Source of the DNA: Verrucomicrobiia bacterium
GTDB lineage: Bacteria; Verrucomicrobiota; Verrucomicrobiae; Limisphaerales; UBA11358
NCBI GenBank assembly: GCA_030042375.1
Contig: JASHZU010000431.1
Location: 1 to 5,367 of the forward strand
Length of the DNA stretch: 5,367 bases
Direction: 5' to 3'
Part shown: piece after piece, positions 1 through 5,367 of the stretch
Position numbering within the stretch: position 1 is the first letter of the stretch
Layout of the letters: every line of letters starts with the position of its first letter
Translations under genes and position numbers: made by a program
The notes under the pieces: model-generated
Database searches by the model: none
What the model was told of the DNA's origin: nothing
The model's input: the letters and a program-made list of their open reading frames with translations, nothing else

Positions 1-3000
1 GTCTGGCCATAACCATTCGCGCCCCAGGCAACGACCGTGCCGTTGGTTTCCAAAGCGAGGGCGTGGACAGCCCCGGCAGCCAGTGCCACGACATTGGTTA
101 GTCCGGGAGGAAGATCGAGCTGGCCGCTGGAATTGTCGCCCCAGCCGGAGATGACGCCGTTGTTTTGCAACGCCAGCGCAAAATATTCATCTCCCGCGGC
201 AATGGCCACGACGTTATTTAAACCGGGCGGGACATCCGCCTGGCCGTAAGTATCGTCGCCCCAGGCGGTGACAGTGCCGTTCTTATTGAGCGCCAGTCCA
301 TCCAACATTTCTGCGGCAATAGCAGAGCAATTGGTCAGGCCAACGGGCACGTTGGTCATGCCGGAAGAATTGTCGCCCCAAGCGGCCACACCTCCCAGAC
401 CGAACAATTGATCTCCGCCATAAACGACGCCAAGCGCGTTGCTGACATCCAGGCGGTAGTGATAAACCTGGTTGGGGCTCAATGAGGGGAGCGTGGCCTT
501 CAAATAGATAAGGCTGTTTCCGCCGTTGATGGACTGAAGCGGCGTCGAGACGCCGTAGTTGGTGCCGCCCCATTCGAACCATGCGGCGGCCGGGGAAGCA
601 TTAGGCGTAGCGAGGCCGTTCAATTGCGCGCTATTGCCCCTGACAAGCGTGGCAGGCAACGTGGCCGAGTAGGGAGAGCCAAACAGGTAAACCAGATCGA
701 AATTCACTTCGACGGCGTAATTGACAGGAACGGCGTTGGTGTTTTGCACGCCAAGATAATAAACGCCACCCTGGACGATGTTGGTGGGCGCCGTATTGGT
801 ACCCAGGATACTGGTCCCGTTGGTTTCATCGAACATCAAGGTGTAGGCGCCATTGGTCGTGGGCGGGAAGTTAGTCGTATAAAGGATATTGACCGGCAGA
901 TTGGTGGCGTACAGCAGAATGTTGGTGGCCCAAACGGCATTCGTGGGCACGTAGACGGTCAGCCAGTTGACGCTGTTGGCCGGAACGGTATTGGTTACCG
1001 GCAGGCCACCGGGCAGCTCCGGTATCACGGTAACGAGGAACTGGTTCGTGGCGCTCAAATCAGTGAACGAATTGGTGACGATGGTGGTGAACAGGATGTT
1101 CGTACTCGGCTCGTTCGTTGGAACATTCCAGGTAATAATGCCGTTGCCACTATTAATTGTCGCACCGACCGGCGGCGCGGTCGTGAGCGAATAATACAAT
1201 GTGCCGGCGTTGGTGTCCGTGGCGGTATTGGTAATAACCAAGGTGCTGCCGGCATCAGCAAAGACATTGGTAATATCCGGCAGGAAGGGCGGCGTGTAAC
1301 TCAGCTCGAAATTCACTTCGATGGTGAACGTTTGTTGAGACGCGGCATTGTTTTGCACGGCGAGGTAATAAATCTGGCCGGGCAACAGAGGCGGAGTCGT
1401 CAGGAGATTCGTAAACAACGTGTCGCTGCCGCTGACGAGATTGTTGATTAATACGTAATCCGGCGGAGTCGGCGGGAGGGCCTCCGTGGGATCGTTGGTC
1501 TGGTTAAACCACAGGCTCAGCGGGCCAAGGGTGAGAGAATCCAGGATATTGGTGGCGGCAATGGCATTCGGCGGTACAAGGACGGCATAATAGATGGAGC
1601 TATTGCCCGGAACGGTATTGGTCACGAGCGTGTCGCCAGGGAGCGGGATAGGCACCGGCGGCACGGGTGTTTCAAAGCTGACCTCCACGGCGTAATTGGT
1701 ACAGAAGTTGTTCGTGTTTTGGACGCCGAGGTAATAGGTGCCACCGGGCACCAGGCGCGGTGGGAGCGGCGCGCCGTTGATAGTGACGATAGCAGAGCCG
1801 CCAGTTGAGGCGGTCAATAATTCAAAGTCGTTGGAATTGATGGTCGAAGGCGGGACGTTGGTGCTGTACCAGAGGTTCAGGGGCGCGTTGGCGAAGAGCA
1901 GGGTATTGGTGGCCGCGAGCGCGTTGGTGGGAACACTCACCGTGTACCATTGGATGGTGTTCGCACAGACGGTATTGGTGACCGGCGTGTCGTTGTCCAG
2001 AGGCCCGGCCATTTCAGAGTATGACGGAGGAACGGCGCTGACAAAGACGTCCACGGTGACAGGACCGAAGTAGGCAACGGTGTCATTATTGGTGACATAG
2101 ACATCAAAGGACGCGTAACCGGAATAATTGGTGCCGCCGGCGGCGCCATTGGTGGGCGTAAAGATGGCGATGCTGTTGCTATAGGTGCCGGTGTTGGTGT
2201 ATGAGCCGAGGACGTTGGTAATATAGACCAGGCCATGAATGGCGTTCGTCACGAAGAAACTCAAGTTGCCGGTCTTGCCGAACAGTTTCTGCAAATTCAC
2301 GCCGACGGGCGTGTTCGTATAGGTCAGCGCGTGCGGACCGCCGAGCCAGTTGTCAAATTCCTCCAGCTCAGAATAACCGGAGTTATCAATGACGCTATTA
2401 TTTTGCGCGTTGGTGATGGACTGGCCAAAGGTAATTTTCCAGAAATCGGGGATGCCGTCATCGGCCGAATCGAGATAGATCAGCGTGGAAGTGTTCGTCG
2501 GCAAAATTCCCGGCGCGCCGATGATGCTGCCGATTTGCTGGCGGACGTTTTCAACAATGTTTGTGTCGATCGAATCGCGCTTGAACATGTCCACACCGGC
2601 AAAGTCCAGGACTTTCTCATAAGCCAAGAAGGCTTCGTCAACGGTCACCGGCGGCAGCGGGAATTGATTGGTGGTCGTAATCTGGCTGGTGTAGGTGGGC
2701 CAATTGGTGAACATGTTTAACCCGGTATTTGCACCGTTGAGGACGCCGTTTTTGTCGCTATCGATGAGATTATTGGTCTGGAAGATCCAGGTATTGGTAT
2801 CCATGCTCCAGAAGGCGATGTTGGTCGTGACCGTATCGGCGCCGGCAATGGCATAATTGCAGACGTAATTCAGATAGTTCGTGTAGCCATTGGGGTTGTT
2901 GGCGCTGTCGTTCGTGGCGTACCCGGCGTTGGTGACCCAGTTGTAAATGACGTTATTAACGAAATCGAGCGCGACATTGTCGCCGAGATGCGGGCTGCCG

Positions 3001-5367
3001 GAATAATTGTCGGCAAACAGATTATGATGGAGGCTGACGGAGCCACCGCCATCGCGCACGAGAGCGCCGTCCGGCGGCGGTTGGTTTGTGACCGCAAGGG
3101 TGTCGGAAATGATGGACCATTGGACAGTAACGTTGGTGGAACTGAGAACCGCCAAATCAACGTTCGAATTCCACGTGATCGACAGGTGATCGCCGATGAT
3201 GTTGGAGGCGGTATTGAGTTGCAATGAATAAGCGCCGCCGCCCGACAGCGTTCCGCTTGCCTCCGGCGCGCTGAATGCAATTCCGGCGGCTGTGCCTGAG
3301 AACACTGAAGCGTAGGTACTTTGCACTCCACCCGGCGTAATTTCGGTGATGGTGAATTCCCCACCGCTGACTGTGCCTGACACAAGCAGATCGCCCGCGT
3401 TGTTAAACGCCAGTCTATTAGGGGCATAAGTCATACCGGCGACGAAGGTACTTCTTACGCCGGCGGGCGTGAATTCGTAGATATTACCGCTGCCGTTGTC
3501 CGATTCAAACAGGTCGCCCGCACTGTTAAACGCCAGCCCTGAAGGATAATTCAGCCCCGTGGCAAAGGAGCTTTGCACTCCCCCTGGCGTGATTTCGGTG
3601 ATATAGCCGGTGCCAGAGAATCCGCCACATACAAACAGGTCGCCCGCACTGTTAAACGCCAGTGCAATGGGACCGGAGAACCCGGTGGCAAAAATTGTCG
3701 GATTTGAACTTATTGTTCCATTGTTATTCGTGAATTCGATGATATCACCGCTGCGATAATCCGCGTCATATAGATTGCCCGCACTGTCAAAAGCCAATCC
3801 TTGGGGATCAACGTCGGTAGCAACTGTGCTTTGCGCTCCGCCTGGCGTAATTTCGGTGATGTAGCCTGTTTCACCGGCATTATTATCCGAACTCCCCACA
3901 AACAGATCCCCAGCGCTATTAAACGCCAGTGTGTCCGGATAACTCAACCCGGTGGCAAACGGGCTTGAAGTTCCGTCTGGCTTAATTTCATACACGTCGC
4001 CGGGGGCATAATTCGCCGCGAACAAATTCTGCGTTAGCGTCGCATAACTCGACCGCAGGCGGAGGTCACGCATGATGATGTCATGCGCGTTCTGGACCGT
4101 GACCGGGCCGCCGGCGACCGTGATGCCGCCGGGCGGCGCGGTCTGGCCTTCAATGGAAAGATAGGAATTGGTGATGGTCAGCGGCGACTGCAAATAGATG
4201 ACGCCGGAGATATCAAAGACAACGGTGCGATTGGTGGAGCTGACGGCGTCGCGCAGGCTGCCGAGGCCGGAATCGTTGAGGTTGACGACGTGATAGACGG
4301 TGTTGTTGGTGTATCCGTTTCGGAAGCTCGCGCCGACGGCACCCGCGCCCGCGCCTTCGGCACCGGGGAAGGCGGGGAAGACGTTATTGGTATCAATGAC
4401 GGCGAGGATGGTGAAATGAATCATGTTCGTCGTCTGGTTGGGCACGCCCAAATACCAGGTGGCGGCGAGATTGGTCAGGGCACTATTGGTCTGAACCTGG
4501 ATAAATTCAGGGAGCGTGCCCGGCTGCTGGCTGGACTGGAAGAACGGCGGGGCGAACGGCGGGGCGTTGGTTTCCACGGTCAAATCGCCATTGCCGGTGA
4601 GGTTATACAATTGGAAATGGATGGAGCCGACGTAGTTGGTGTTCGTGGCTGTAACTGTATTCGTGACGACGAAGGTGAAGAAGTTCGTCAAGGCCGCGCC
4701 CGGCCCGGCGGTGTAATCCAGCGGCACGCCGTTGGTGAGCGGGATGTAGGTGACGTTGGTGCTGGTGACGTTGGCCGGATTCATGTCCAGCTCCTGCGCC
4801 TCGATGCTGTAATTTACCGCGTTGGTATCGTTATTAAAGACGCCGAGATACCAGGTTCCCGGCGTGAGGGGAACGGGAGTGGAATTGGTCAGGACATAGA
4901 TATTTTGGTTGGCCCGGCCGCTGTTAAAGCTGCCATAGTCTGAACTGGTCAACGTGGGCAACGGACCGCCTTCGCTCGCCACAAGGTATACATTACCGCT
5001 GGGATGGAGGATTTGGAAGGTGGCCTCGTAAGGATTGTTGGTCGAGACGACAAAGCTGTAGTAGCGCACCGAGCCGTTCACATTCGTGAGCGTGTCATTA
5101 AATGGAACGTCGTTGGTCAGGCCGACGATGTTGTAATCCACCTGGAAGACTGCCGAGGCAGCACTGGTGCCGGGGTTTTGGAGGCCAATATAATAGGTCT
5201 GGCCGGGGATGAAATTGGTCGGGACGCTGGTGGTTGTCAGGGCCTCGCTTCCGCTTGTGCCCGAGAACATGAAGGTATCGGGCGGAGTGACTCCGGTCGG
5301 TGCAGTGGTCTGGTTAAAGAACACGTTCAGAGGCAAGGTGGAGGAAACCAGGATATTCGTCACGACG
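1..5367 (-). CDS. Giant multidomain secreted protein, partial at both ends (pectate-lyase-like beta-helix, NHL propeller, PPC-like and RCC1 repeats)
   Basis: A single minus-strand frame is open across the entire window (1,788 codons, no stop), and neither the start nor the stop is present, so signal peptide, ribosome binding site and C-terminal sorting signal cannot be seen. Recognisable modules run without interruption in this one frame: PPC-like sandwiches, a PL1-type beta-helix split by six NHL-type units, a TSP3-like acidic segment, Ig-like and Fn3-like domains, and RCC1 repeats. I counted five Cys, nine Lys and about seventeen Arg in the whole stretch, while Asn and Thr are very abundant, often as Thr-Asn pairs. 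This composition fits an exported protein and giant proteins of Verrucomicrobiota. A role in binding or processing polysaccharide outside the cytoplasm is inferred from the beta-helix; the exact substrate is unknown. The frame and domain content are certain or nearly so; the function is not. Confidence 0.95.
3..398 (-). repeat. RCC1-type repeat array, continuing beyond the window
   Basis: Residues 1657-1788. Units of 39-40 residues follow the pattern AWGDNSSGQ-x-x-x-PPGLTNVVAIAAG-x-x-x-x-ALAL-x-x-NGTV. The Trp of the WG motif falls at residues 1663, 1702, 1742 and 1781, giving three complete units and the start of a fourth. RCC1 repeats form beta-propellers, usually of seven blades, so about four more units are expected beyond the lower window edge. 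In bacteria these arrays occur in exported proteins of mostly unknown role. The third unit from the window edge is unusual in having LTNCSAIAAEMLDGLAL, with Cys 1680. Confidence 0.9.
399..686 (-). other. Fibronectin type III-like domain
   Basis: Residues 1561-1656. The pattern ATLVRGNSAQLNGLATPNA, AAAWFEWGGTNYG, LPSLSPNQVYHYRLDVSN and ALGVVYGGDQLFG matches the Fn3-like modules that often precede RCC1 arrays in verrucomicrobial proteins. The F-E-W-G-x-T-x-Y-G strand and the L-x-P-x-x-x-Y-x-Y-R-L strand are the main landmarks. It has no enzyme motif and probably serves as a linker or display module. Confidence 0.65.
687..1016 (-). other. PPC-like beta-sandwich repeat 6
   Basis: Residues 1451-1560. 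The order is LPVTNTVPANSVNWLTVYVP, AVWATNILLYATNLPVNILY, VQGGVYYLGVQNTNAVPVNY and AVEVNFDLVY. It is the nearest relative of repeat 4; the two share VTNTV-x-AN near the start and YYLGVQNTN with YAVEV near the end. Nucleotides encoding the VNFE/VNFD strand (for example tcgaaattcacttcga at about 698 and 1307) are almost identical between repeats 5 and 6, consistent with tandem duplication. Confidence 0.65.
1017..1301 (-). other. Putative-Ig (He_PIG-like) domain
   Basis: Residues 1356-1450. The sequence FADAGSTLVITNTATDTN, then LYYSLTTAPPVGATINSGNG and IITWNVPTNEPSTNILFTTI, ending in SATNQFLVTVIPE, follows the He_PIG pattern: a Y-x-L-x-x-x-P-x-GA-x-I stretch, a G-x-I-x-W strand, and a closing strand FxVTV. 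Such domains are structural modules of bacterial surface proteins. It sits alone between two PPC-like repeats. Confidence 0.65.
1302..1646 (-). other. PPC-like beta-sandwich repeat 5
   Basis: Residues 1241-1355. The order is LVTNTVPGNSSIYYAVLVPP, AIAATNIL, LSLWFNQTNDPTEALPPTPP, PGQIYYLAVQNNAASQQTFT and IEVNFEL. It resembles repeat 1 at the start of the window most closely (shared FNQT and PGQxYY), even though the lyase lies between them. This suggests that sandwich modules were copied to both sides of the lyase. No catalytic residues are seen. Confidence 0.65.
1647..2012 (-). other. PPC-like beta-sandwich repeat 4, with a paired-cysteine variant
   Basis: Residues 1119-1240. Layout: DNDTPVTNTVCANTIQWYTV, ALAATNTLLFANAPLNLWYS, then PGGTYYLGVQNTNNFCTNYA leading into VEVSFE. 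It is closely similar to the repeat at residues 1451-1560. Two of only five cysteines in the window lie here (residues 1134 and 1222), both at positions where that sister repeat has Pro. They could form a disulfide joining the first and last parts of the sandwich. A Pro/Val-rich linker (TPVPPVPIPLPGD) follows. Confidence 0.65.
2013..2339 (-). other. Asn/Thr-rich Ig-like beta-sandwich domain
   Basis: Residues 1010-1118. After PHALTYTNTPVGVNLQKLFG come alternating short strands: NLSFFVTN, GLVYITNVLGSY, SIAIFTPTNGAAGGTNYSGY and ASFDVYVTNNDTVAYFGP, ending VTVDVFVSAVPPS. The final strand pattern and lack of any WYLGV signature separate it from the PPC-like repeats and suggest a cadherin- or Ig-like sandwich. 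I cannot assign a named family. It most likely serves as a structural spacer between the lyase and the C-terminal sandwiches. Confidence 0.45.
2340..2489 (-). other. TSP3-like acidic segment following the lyase
   Basis: Residues 960-1009. The motif LDSADDGIPDFWKITFG (965-981) resembles the DxDxDGxPDxWE calcium repeats that commonly close verrucomicrobial pectate-lyase domains, and it is followed by SGYSELEEFDNWLGG, the usual companion helix. Some acidic positions of the strict repeat are replaced (Ser-Ala in place of a D-x-D pair), so calcium binding may be weakened. It probably caps the beta-helix and links it to the sandwich modules. Confidence 0.6.
2490..3242 (-). other. Pectate-lyase-like beta-helix, C-terminal part and tail; active site looks degraded
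   Basis: Residues 709-959. The helix resumes with AYSLQLNTASNIIGDHLSIT, then STNVTVQWSIIS, SVSLHHNLFADNYSGSPHLG and LDFVNNVIYNW, the usual order of coils in PL1-type lyases. The DH of the vWiDH motif is kept (residues 726-727). In the coil where relatives have a pattern like SRNPR, this protein has SGSPH, so the position expected for the catalytic Arg is Gly 790 and the next Arg is His 793. The strand after DH reads WNSNVDL, where relatives often carry a D-E pair. The tail (VDEAFLAYEKVLDFAGVDMF, then KRDSIDTNIVENVRQQIGSI) matches the tail usually seen after such lyases. The fold is confident; loss of lyase activity is an inference from remembered family patterns. Confidence 0.85.
2733..2762 (-). 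other. EF-hand-like calcium loop in lyase tail
   Basis: Residues 869-878 read DSDKNGVLNG. This fits the D-x-D-x-N-G-x-L-N start of an EF-hand or dockerin-type calcium loop, preceded by the hydrophobic pair LI. There is no second matching loop beside it, so it is not a full dockerin. It may bind a structural calcium ion. Confidence 0.45.
3243..4049 (-). repeat. Six NHL-type beta-propeller repeats inserted within the lyase domain
   Basis: Residues 440-708. Six units of 41-45 residues each end in LAFNSAG or a close variant and begin the next unit with DLF or NLY. The Phe of this anchor lies at residues 482, 526, 571, 613, 654 and 698. The pattern P-x-x-LAFNSAGDLFxxDxxSGxIYEFTPxG is typical of NHL/SMP-30-like propeller blades, and six units would make one closed six-bladed propeller. 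Units 2, 4 and 6 share ITEI(T)PGG(A/V)QS, while units 1, 3 and 5 have a (V/I)(Y/I)E(I/F) strand instead. No catalytic or metal site can be assigned; such propellers usually bind proteins or ligands. Rare Ser codons (TCA, AGT) and Gly GGA are enriched here compared with flanking modules, suggesting a separate origin. Confidence 0.88.
3506..3662. repeat. 31-bp exact direct repeat, 126-nt period
   Basis: The 31 bases at 3506-3536 recur exactly at 3632-3662 on the plus strand; both contain the core gcactgttaaacgccag. They encode the hinge between successive propeller blades (LAFNSAGDLF). Degenerate copies lie at the same place in other blades, near 3390-3413 and 3903-3929. Exact nucleotide identity between blades points to recent duplication or gene conversion. 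It could also be a site of recombination or misassembly. Confidence 0.85.
4050..4382 (-). other. Pectate-lyase-like (PL1-type) right-handed beta-helix, N-terminal part
   Basis: Residues 329-439. The sequence AFPGAEGAGAGAVGA and then VYHVVNLNDSGLGSLRDAV (residues 358-375), NRTVVFDISGVIYL, LSIEGQTAPPGGITV and DIIMRDLRLRS matches, in order, the opening of bacterial PL1-type pectate lyases. These enzymes fold as parallel beta-helices and cut polygalacturonate by beta-elimination. The normal family sequence would continue after the RxLRxR strand with a short loop and then a DH-containing coil. Here that continuation is displaced by about 270 residues of NHL repeats and resumes near residue 709. 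The fold call is strong from motif order; activity is doubtful (see the second part). Confidence 0.88.
4383..4778 (-). other. PPC-like beta-sandwich repeat 3
   Basis: Residues 197-328. It starts YIPLTNGVPLDYTAGPGA, contains FFTFVVTNTVTATNTN and IHFQLYNLTGNGDLTV, and closes with ATWYLGVPNQTTNMIHFTI. It is longer than its neighbours because of a Pro/Phe/Gln-rich loop (APPFAPPFFQSSQQPG). A short linker ending DTNNVFPA leads straight into the beta-helix domain. The WYLGVPN signature supports the PPC-like call. Confidence 0.6.
4779..5114 (-). other. PPC-like beta-sandwich repeat 2
   Basis: Residues 85-196. This one has the classical PPC order: an opening DVPFNDTLTNVNGSVRYYSF strand, a middle section YEATFQILHPSGNVYLVAS, and a closing TPGTWYLGVFNNDTNAVNYS. 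The GTWYLGVFN element is the strongest PPC hallmark in the window. It is more divergent from the C-terminal copies than those are from each other. It carries no catalytic motif and probably acts as a structural or binding module. Confidence 0.7.
5115..5366 (-). other. PPC-like beta-sandwich repeat 1 (N-terminally cut by window edge)
   Basis: Residues 1-84. The segment begins inside the domain (VVTNILVSSTLPLNVFFNQ) and ends with the signature PGQTYYIGLQNPG followed by a beta-strand FQVDYNI. The same layout recurs near residues 1270-1355, where ATNIL, LSLWFNQT and PGQIYYLAVQN appear in the same order, so these are copies of one repeat. The pattern resembles bacterial pre-peptidase C-terminal (PPC) domains, which are beta-sandwiches found in secreted enzymes and thought to aid binding or localisation. 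Family assignment is by eye; a distinct but related verrucomicrobial sandwich family is possible. Confidence 0.6.

Follow-up and report, generated by a model that had tools for sequence, protein, structure and literature searches.

A six-bladed propeller within one turn of a PL1-type beta-helix that lacks its catalytic base, in a large protein of Verrucomicrobiota

How can a whole beta-propeller sit within a single turn of a pectate-lyase-like beta-helix, and what becomes of the helix that carries it? The question is raised by a 5,367-nucleotide stretch of DNA from a Verrucomicrobiia bacterium (contig JASHZU010000431.1 of assembly GCA_030042375.1), analysed over its full length and referred to here as the window, in which a minus-strand frame encodes part of a giant multi-domain protein. 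An initial annotation had proposed that about 270 in-frame residues at 3243-4049, forming a six-bladed NHL-type propeller, fill a turn that is a short loop in PL1-type lyases, and that they could be tolerated there because the ring closes on itself. Homology, a structure model and Pfam matches to the excised insert bear out this architecture. The account that we consider probable, albeit with reserve, is that the PL1 helix is a pseudo-lyase, one turn of which acts as an insertion slot and which serves as a mount for binding or display, with its propellers replaced from a pool of free-standing ones.

The propeller and the helix around it

A structure prediction, which the initial annotation had suggested for residues 329-959, gives a continuous helix with a closed propeller (predicted local distance difference test, pLDDT, 80.5; predicted template modelling score, pTM, 0.69), and model residues 4..630 match structure 9buj. 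On this model, a single PL1-type beta-helix is built from residues 329-438 and 714-954, one half from each. The turn between them holds 275 residues, compared with 12-13 in standard relatives; the frame is open throughout, and the insert limits proposed earlier agree within about 20 bases with those found here (Table 1). The insert contains six 'LAF/IAF' and six 'E(I/F)' strand motifs and forms a closed ring of six blades, the last of which, by our reading of the sequence, is completed by the N-terminal strands; such closure supports the idea that the ring is tolerated as a loop insertion. When excised, the insert matches the NHL repeat (PF01436) at 33.9 bits against a cut-off of 20, and SGL (SMP-30/gluconolactonase, PF08450) barely above its cut-off (28.1 against 26.3), whereas in the whole frame both fall below (17.9 and 21.0 bits, respectively). 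The ScyD/ScyE family (NF033206) reaches 58.5 bits in the whole frame, under its cut-off of 80. The pectate lyase family PF00544 gave no match in the whole frame (E up to 1) or in the two helix pieces (E up to 5), in searches where the HMMER filters drop weak matches.

Table 1. Features of the window
Feature	Position	Strand	Basis or remark
Open frame	5366..3	minus	1788 aa, no stop, both ends open
PL1-type beta-helix, N-terminal half, residues 329-438, ends RDLRLR	4053..4382	minus	69-79% to P0001-P0005; model; 9buj match
Insertion slot, turn between two coils, residues 439-713	3228..4052	minus	275 aa; turn compared across 202 helix pairs
Six-bladed NHL-type propeller, residues 445-702	3261..4034	minus	structure match
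PL1-type beta-helix, C-terminal half, residues 714-954	2505..3227	minus	homology, model
Conserved Asp-Glu pair site, residues 735-736, here Asn-Val	3159..3164	minus	counts in relatives
Conserved His site, residue 764, here Pro	3075..3077	minus	counts in relatives
Catalytic-base position, residue 790, here Gly	2997..2999	minus	aligns to PfPL1 Arg220, pectin lyase B Arg236
RCC1 repeats, C-terminal end, cut by window edge	3..386	minus	PF13540 59.3 bits, three stretches; start 386 by reading of sequence

The initial annotation had called for a search for other PL1 domains with NHL repeats at this loop, and had allowed that the junctions might be assembly errors. Relatives were sought in three protein searches (best 120 of 1783, 2790 and 629 hits; counts are of the rows listed). 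Among the matches listed, P0001-P0005 align with 99-100% of residues 325-960 (identity 48-59%), each with the N-terminal half, the propeller and the C-terminal half in the window's order, and a later search adds P0253, P0254, P0259 and P0274; the contigs of these nine proteins range from 8.6 kb to 3.3 Mb. The same order is found at locus L081 of genome G552. An assembly chimera, in favour of which it can be said that the window is a single contig, is dismissed by this recurrence on independent contigs, and the architecture is thus a family trait. Among the best-ranked results of open-access PMC searches, we saw no report of a propeller inserted in a PL1 helix, nor of a PL1 clade without the catalytic arginine.

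Catalytic residues and the insertion slot

We turn to the active site. By profile alignment, Gly790 falls on Arg220 of PfPL1, counted by chain index, and on index 236 of 1qcx (pectin lyase B), the latter match being weak (E 0.13). Arg220 is the proposed base of the pectin-active PfPL1 (PMC11229556) and Arg236 of pectin lyase B is listed as the base (PMC10992409, Table 4). For the second arginine of PfPL1 (Arg235), the alignment gave no position by chain index, and it is left out of account here. PfPL1 is also proposed to act without a catalytic metal (PMC11229556), and we thus term the Asp-Glu pair conserved rather than catalytic. In the 96 short-turn relatives that bear the arginine, Asp735 is kept in all 96, Glu736 in 92 and His764 in 95, and among 25 pairs from more distant loci, mostly from other phyla, 22 have Arg790. 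None of the 36 insert carriers has Arg790 (Ala in 18, Gly in 16, Asp in 2) or Asp735. Sorted by turn length, the arginine is present in 96 of 109 turns of 12-13 residues, 12 of 37 of 6-11 residues, 10 of 20 of 14-37 residues and 0 of 36 of at least 168 residues. These losses are observed; the inactivity that we infer from them would make the PL1 helix of the window a pseudo-lyase, probably a dead enzyme.

The model also places the slot. Its coils have three strands each (model residues 98-101, 104-109 and 112-114; 391-394, 397-402 and 405-407; 414-417, 420-425 and 428-430; 446-448, 451-456 and 459-461). The insert fills the turn after strand 112-114, and the former active-site positions 735/736, 764 and 790 (model 411/412, 440 and 466) occupy the corresponding turns of the three coils that follow. 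Judged by this strand order, the slot would thus lie in the old active-site turn stack, one coil before the former active-site residues. Such a position suits another interpretation, in which lyase activity persists in the helix by an altered mechanism with a different base, and the propeller covers the groove as a lid that grips the substrate. Five positions (D726, H727, N805, N833 and N837) are invariant in 36 of 36 insert carriers, so that the fold is under constraint, and some active-site positions survive, with Arg793 kept in 21 of 36, His764 in 8 and Glu736 in 2 (P0009 and P0026), all of which counts against a dead helix. The base arginine and Asp735 are, on the other hand, lost from every insert carrier and Glu736 from 34 of them, and a shared catalytic lid is hard to square with four unrelated domains in one turn. 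With the arginine replaced by glycine and the Asp-Glu pair by Asn-Val, the helix is probably no working lyase, and a lyase with a lid, which the initial annotation had entertained, is therefore unlikely. Its other suggestion, a binding role for the propeller as ligand arm or docking site, seems to us the better guess.

What the initial annotation did not foresee is that, on sequence comparison, the propeller is one of four unrelated domain types found in this turn. Across 202 helix pairs, the turn measures 6-37 residues in 166 and 168-552 residues in 36, with none in between. Two of these long inserts were counted twice (L001 is P0018 and L006 is P0036), which leaves 34 distinct, and L002 gives two pairs; the pair table needs both helix halves, so that partial proteins (for example P0007, P0047, P0048, P0050, P0054 and P0064) are uncounted. 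The 36 inserts form four clusters without detectable similarity to one another: 22 of DUF642 type (20 distinct), 10 NHL propellers including that of the window, two SO2946-like and two of a 211-residue type. In a Pfam scan of five inserts, matches pass their cut-offs for DUF642 (33.4 and 31.8 against 27), LamG (74 and 71.9 against 27.6) and SO2946-like_C (30.1 against 27), and with the NHL match of the excised window insert, three of the four clusters have Pfam support; the 211-residue type has an fn3_3 match, below cut-off only. At both of its ends, a single-DUF642 insert aligns with the corresponding end of the 362-384-residue inserts (P0016 7-91 and 103-176 to P0041 3-78 and 314-376), and LamG is the sole family above cut-off in the 384-residue insert. 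To judge by these alignments, LamG interrupts a DUF642-like domain there, and in the 534-552-residue inserts a nested DUF642[LamG] pair of this kind comes after a DUF642. The model of a 537-residue nested insert has a pLDDT of only 49, which limits the structural support for a general slot to the propeller case.

As possible sources of the inserts, intragenic copying was rejected by searches of each insert against its own protein, and tandem expansion at the junctions was rejected too, there being no tandem array. Propeller, SO2946-type, 211-residue and single-DUF642 inserts had no match (E 1e-5) elsewhere in their own protein; eight rows with LamG-containing inserts (two of them the same protein) did, each of these matches being weaker than the one to another slot insert.

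Of 320 genomes in G001's order, 27 yield a single match each at E <= 1e-30; within one family it is 18 of 49, both counts including Arg-bearing helices, and a class-wide search gave 7 of 384. The family of G355 is represented here by one genome. A long insert is present in eight of the 27: G001 (537 residues, a length taken from L001), G003 (168), G009 (172), G005 (243), G006 (240), G007 (211), G552 (261, NHL) and G569 (174). None of the eight shows the arginine in the printed motif; seven of them seem to be covered already by named loci of the pair table, G552 being new. One protein, P0008, has both forms: an Arg-less helix with a 374-residue insert (residues 5-677) and a second copy with the arginine and a 12-residue turn (1273-1579).

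A tree of 115 helices, which left out loci beyond L023, duplicates and cores below 200 residues and kept 37 of the 96 Arg-bearing rows, places all inserts inside one 67-row clade in which no row has the arginine (Shimodaira-Hasegawa-like approximate likelihood ratio test, SH-aLRT, 98). As many as 33 of the 67 rows have no long insert, which weakens the association, and Arg loss alone thus does not bring an insert. Outside the clade, the arginine has given way to Tyr in seven rows and to Cys, His, Ser and Ala in one each, all with a 12-residue turn and insert-free; the Tyr rows (P0094, P0105, P0251, P0264, P0265, P0267 and P0269) represent a separate loss on the tree. A 77-row tree, from which P0277 and the rows whose Arg column shows Tyr, Cys or His were also dropped, and which retained eight Arg-bearing rows and added L081, requires 13 changes of insert presence or absence, at least 9 of them forced by starred branches, and 21 changes of insert type; gains cannot be told from losses on it.

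Such frequent toggling, with loops from 6 to 552 residues, is what one would expect of neutral decay, in which a dead domain of a giant protein tolerates functionless insertions. We find this improbable: there is no insert of intermediate length, all inserts are in frame, and the ten NHL carriers, whose propellers differ, share 59-90% identity in the helix.

Origin of the slot propellers

The replacement of slot propellers from a free-standing pool is suggested by several lines of evidence. First of all, free-standing propellers 40-60% identical to the insert exist (best 120 of 2790), 29 of the 120 listed carrying PEP-CTERM (PF07589; counted from the listing). Two with this signal, P0134 and P0160, are 58-59% identical over 94-95% of the insert and align from AQNLF after the leader; they differ in being independent, uninserted proteins of about 300 residues. 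In all ten free-standing rows aligned with the insert, the match begins at AQNL (8) or GQNL (2), directly after a leader-like stretch. We read this start as a putative signal-peptide cleavage site, and the window's propeller would correspond to a whole mature free-standing propeller.

Second, in propeller trees built with 55 of the 120 free-standing rows (lengths 280-320), a single clade of slot propellers is rejected by the approximately unbiased (AU) test (p-AU 0.0034), with at least 6 changes forced (10 slot against 55 free). Third, six of the ten slot propellers score higher against one of the 120 free-standing proteins than against any other slot propeller (bit scores free against slot: window 253/243, P0001 225/127, P0002 214/156, P0004 300/238, P0259 307/243 and P0274 251/206). 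Fourth, identity of the helix core does not follow identity of the propeller (Spearman 0.06, 714 of 2000 permutations as high), whereas with single-DUF642 inserts it does (0.74, 0 of 2000), and in close helix pairs identity drops at the slot edges. Finally, genome G552 has, besides its slot propeller, short open frames of 398, 300 and 341 residues (C142, C62 and C154) with related propellers at 34-46% identity.

Several observations weigh on the other side. The free-standing set was picked by similarity to the window's propeller, whose own margin is small (253 against 243), and four of ten slot propellers (P0003, P0005, P0253 and P0254) match another slot propeller best. P0003, P0253 and L081 have slot-end sequence in common, and the propeller thus looks inherited there. 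AU tests of four smaller groups give p 0.037 (window with P0001), 0.035, 0.0014 and 0.032 (P0254 with P0259), the pairwise tests being weak; and long slot-propeller branches and possible errors of repeat register may mislead the propeller tree, whose bootstrap values were unsettled. With DUF642[LamG] inserts, the correlation with the core is weak (0.43, 186 of 2000) and speaks neither way.

These points lend themselves to the most serious alternative, a single old capture of the propeller followed by vertical inheritance and fast evolution, with no free-standing exchange. The NHL-bearing helices do form one clade (11 rows of the 77-row tree, 100/99), and the common slot ends and the long slot branches also speak for such a capture. 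It has to contend with the rejected slot-propeller clade and with the six propellers closer to free-standing ones (P0002, for example, at 54% against 42% and P0259 at 60% against 53%), and we regard it as a genuine possibility that falls short of being likely.

Genome G552 also has, on C102, a 3662-residue open frame with seven slot-propeller matches, possibly a many-propeller protein, and G537 and G548, with 15 and 13 slot-propeller matches at E <= 1e-20, contain a large reservoir of propellers related to those in the slot.

A possible display mount in a giant protein

The reading that we favour, a mount with exchangeable propellers, runs as follows. The PL1 helix lost its catalytic base and the neighbouring Asp-Glu pair, and with them, presumably, lyase activity. 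A turn in the former active-site stack has become an insertion slot in this clade, whose members carry there either a short stub (6-34 residues) or a domain such as a propeller, a DUF642 jelly roll, DUF642[LamG] or others. The stiff helix would present this domain next to the former groove for the substrate, if the strand order of the model is a guide. Slot propellers may have been replaced, wholly or in their middle blades, by free-standing copies, as the trees support without proving. The inserted domain could be a ligand-binding head, for instance for extracellular polysaccharide. Going further, we put forward tentatively, as a rather doubtful extension, a modular receptor in which the dead helix is a socket (one strong match per genome) and heads are swapped with free-standing propeller genes and, over longer times, with unrelated domains, giving varied binding among related bacteria.

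Comparison with known systems is instructive. The canonical Arg-bearing relatives (for example P0069-P0079) resemble the window at 51-57% identity in the N-terminal half and 40-42% in the C-terminal half, but have a 12-residue turn, the catalytic arginine and a pectinesterase domain (PF01095), which fits a pectin-degrading ancestor. PfPL1, pectin-active with Arg220 as proposed base (PMC11229556), likewise has a short turn in place of the window's 275 residues. Closer in shape is the PL1 enzyme Bsp165PelA, whose long T3 turn reaches out of the helix core; T3 is described as a loop rather than a separately folding domain, and the enzyme is a working one (PMC10992409). For a binding helix, the autotransporter adhesin UpaB offers a parallel, its lyase-like groove being reported to bind glycosaminoglycans; it belongs to another helix family, and the accessible portion of the source mentions no inserted domain (PMC6488583). 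In integrins, the inserted alpha-I domain is reported to widen the ligand range while obstructing an older pocket (PMC12422189).

The integrin is an animal protein in which a propeller hosts the inserted alpha-I domain, whereas in the window the propeller is the insert. More broadly, lost catalysis and an opened insertion site appear linked in this enzyme family, the turn being nearly fixed in length in Arg-bearing relatives and spanning 6 to 552 residues in the clade without Arg; whether lost activity frees a fold for new parts can be tested with sister sequences. A natural beta-helix socket, used repeatedly for a propeller, jelly rolls and nested domains, would be useful for protein design, and a role is suggested for very large uncharacterised proteins of Verrucomicrobiota.

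The giant protein that carries helix and propeller is probably secreted. A Pfam scan of the whole frame finds RCC1 repeats at the C-terminal end and weak SGL/NHL matches in mid-frame; with the RCC1 repeats, the protein thus carries two different propeller-type modules. Diverged 'YYLGVQN'-type repeats (families D3 and D8), for which Pfam gave no match, flank the lyase helix on both sides (697-1745 and 5175-5207, minus strand). The GC skew is about +0.10 to +0.25 in flanking 500-base intervals, and -0.03 and -0.08 in two intervals inside the insert.

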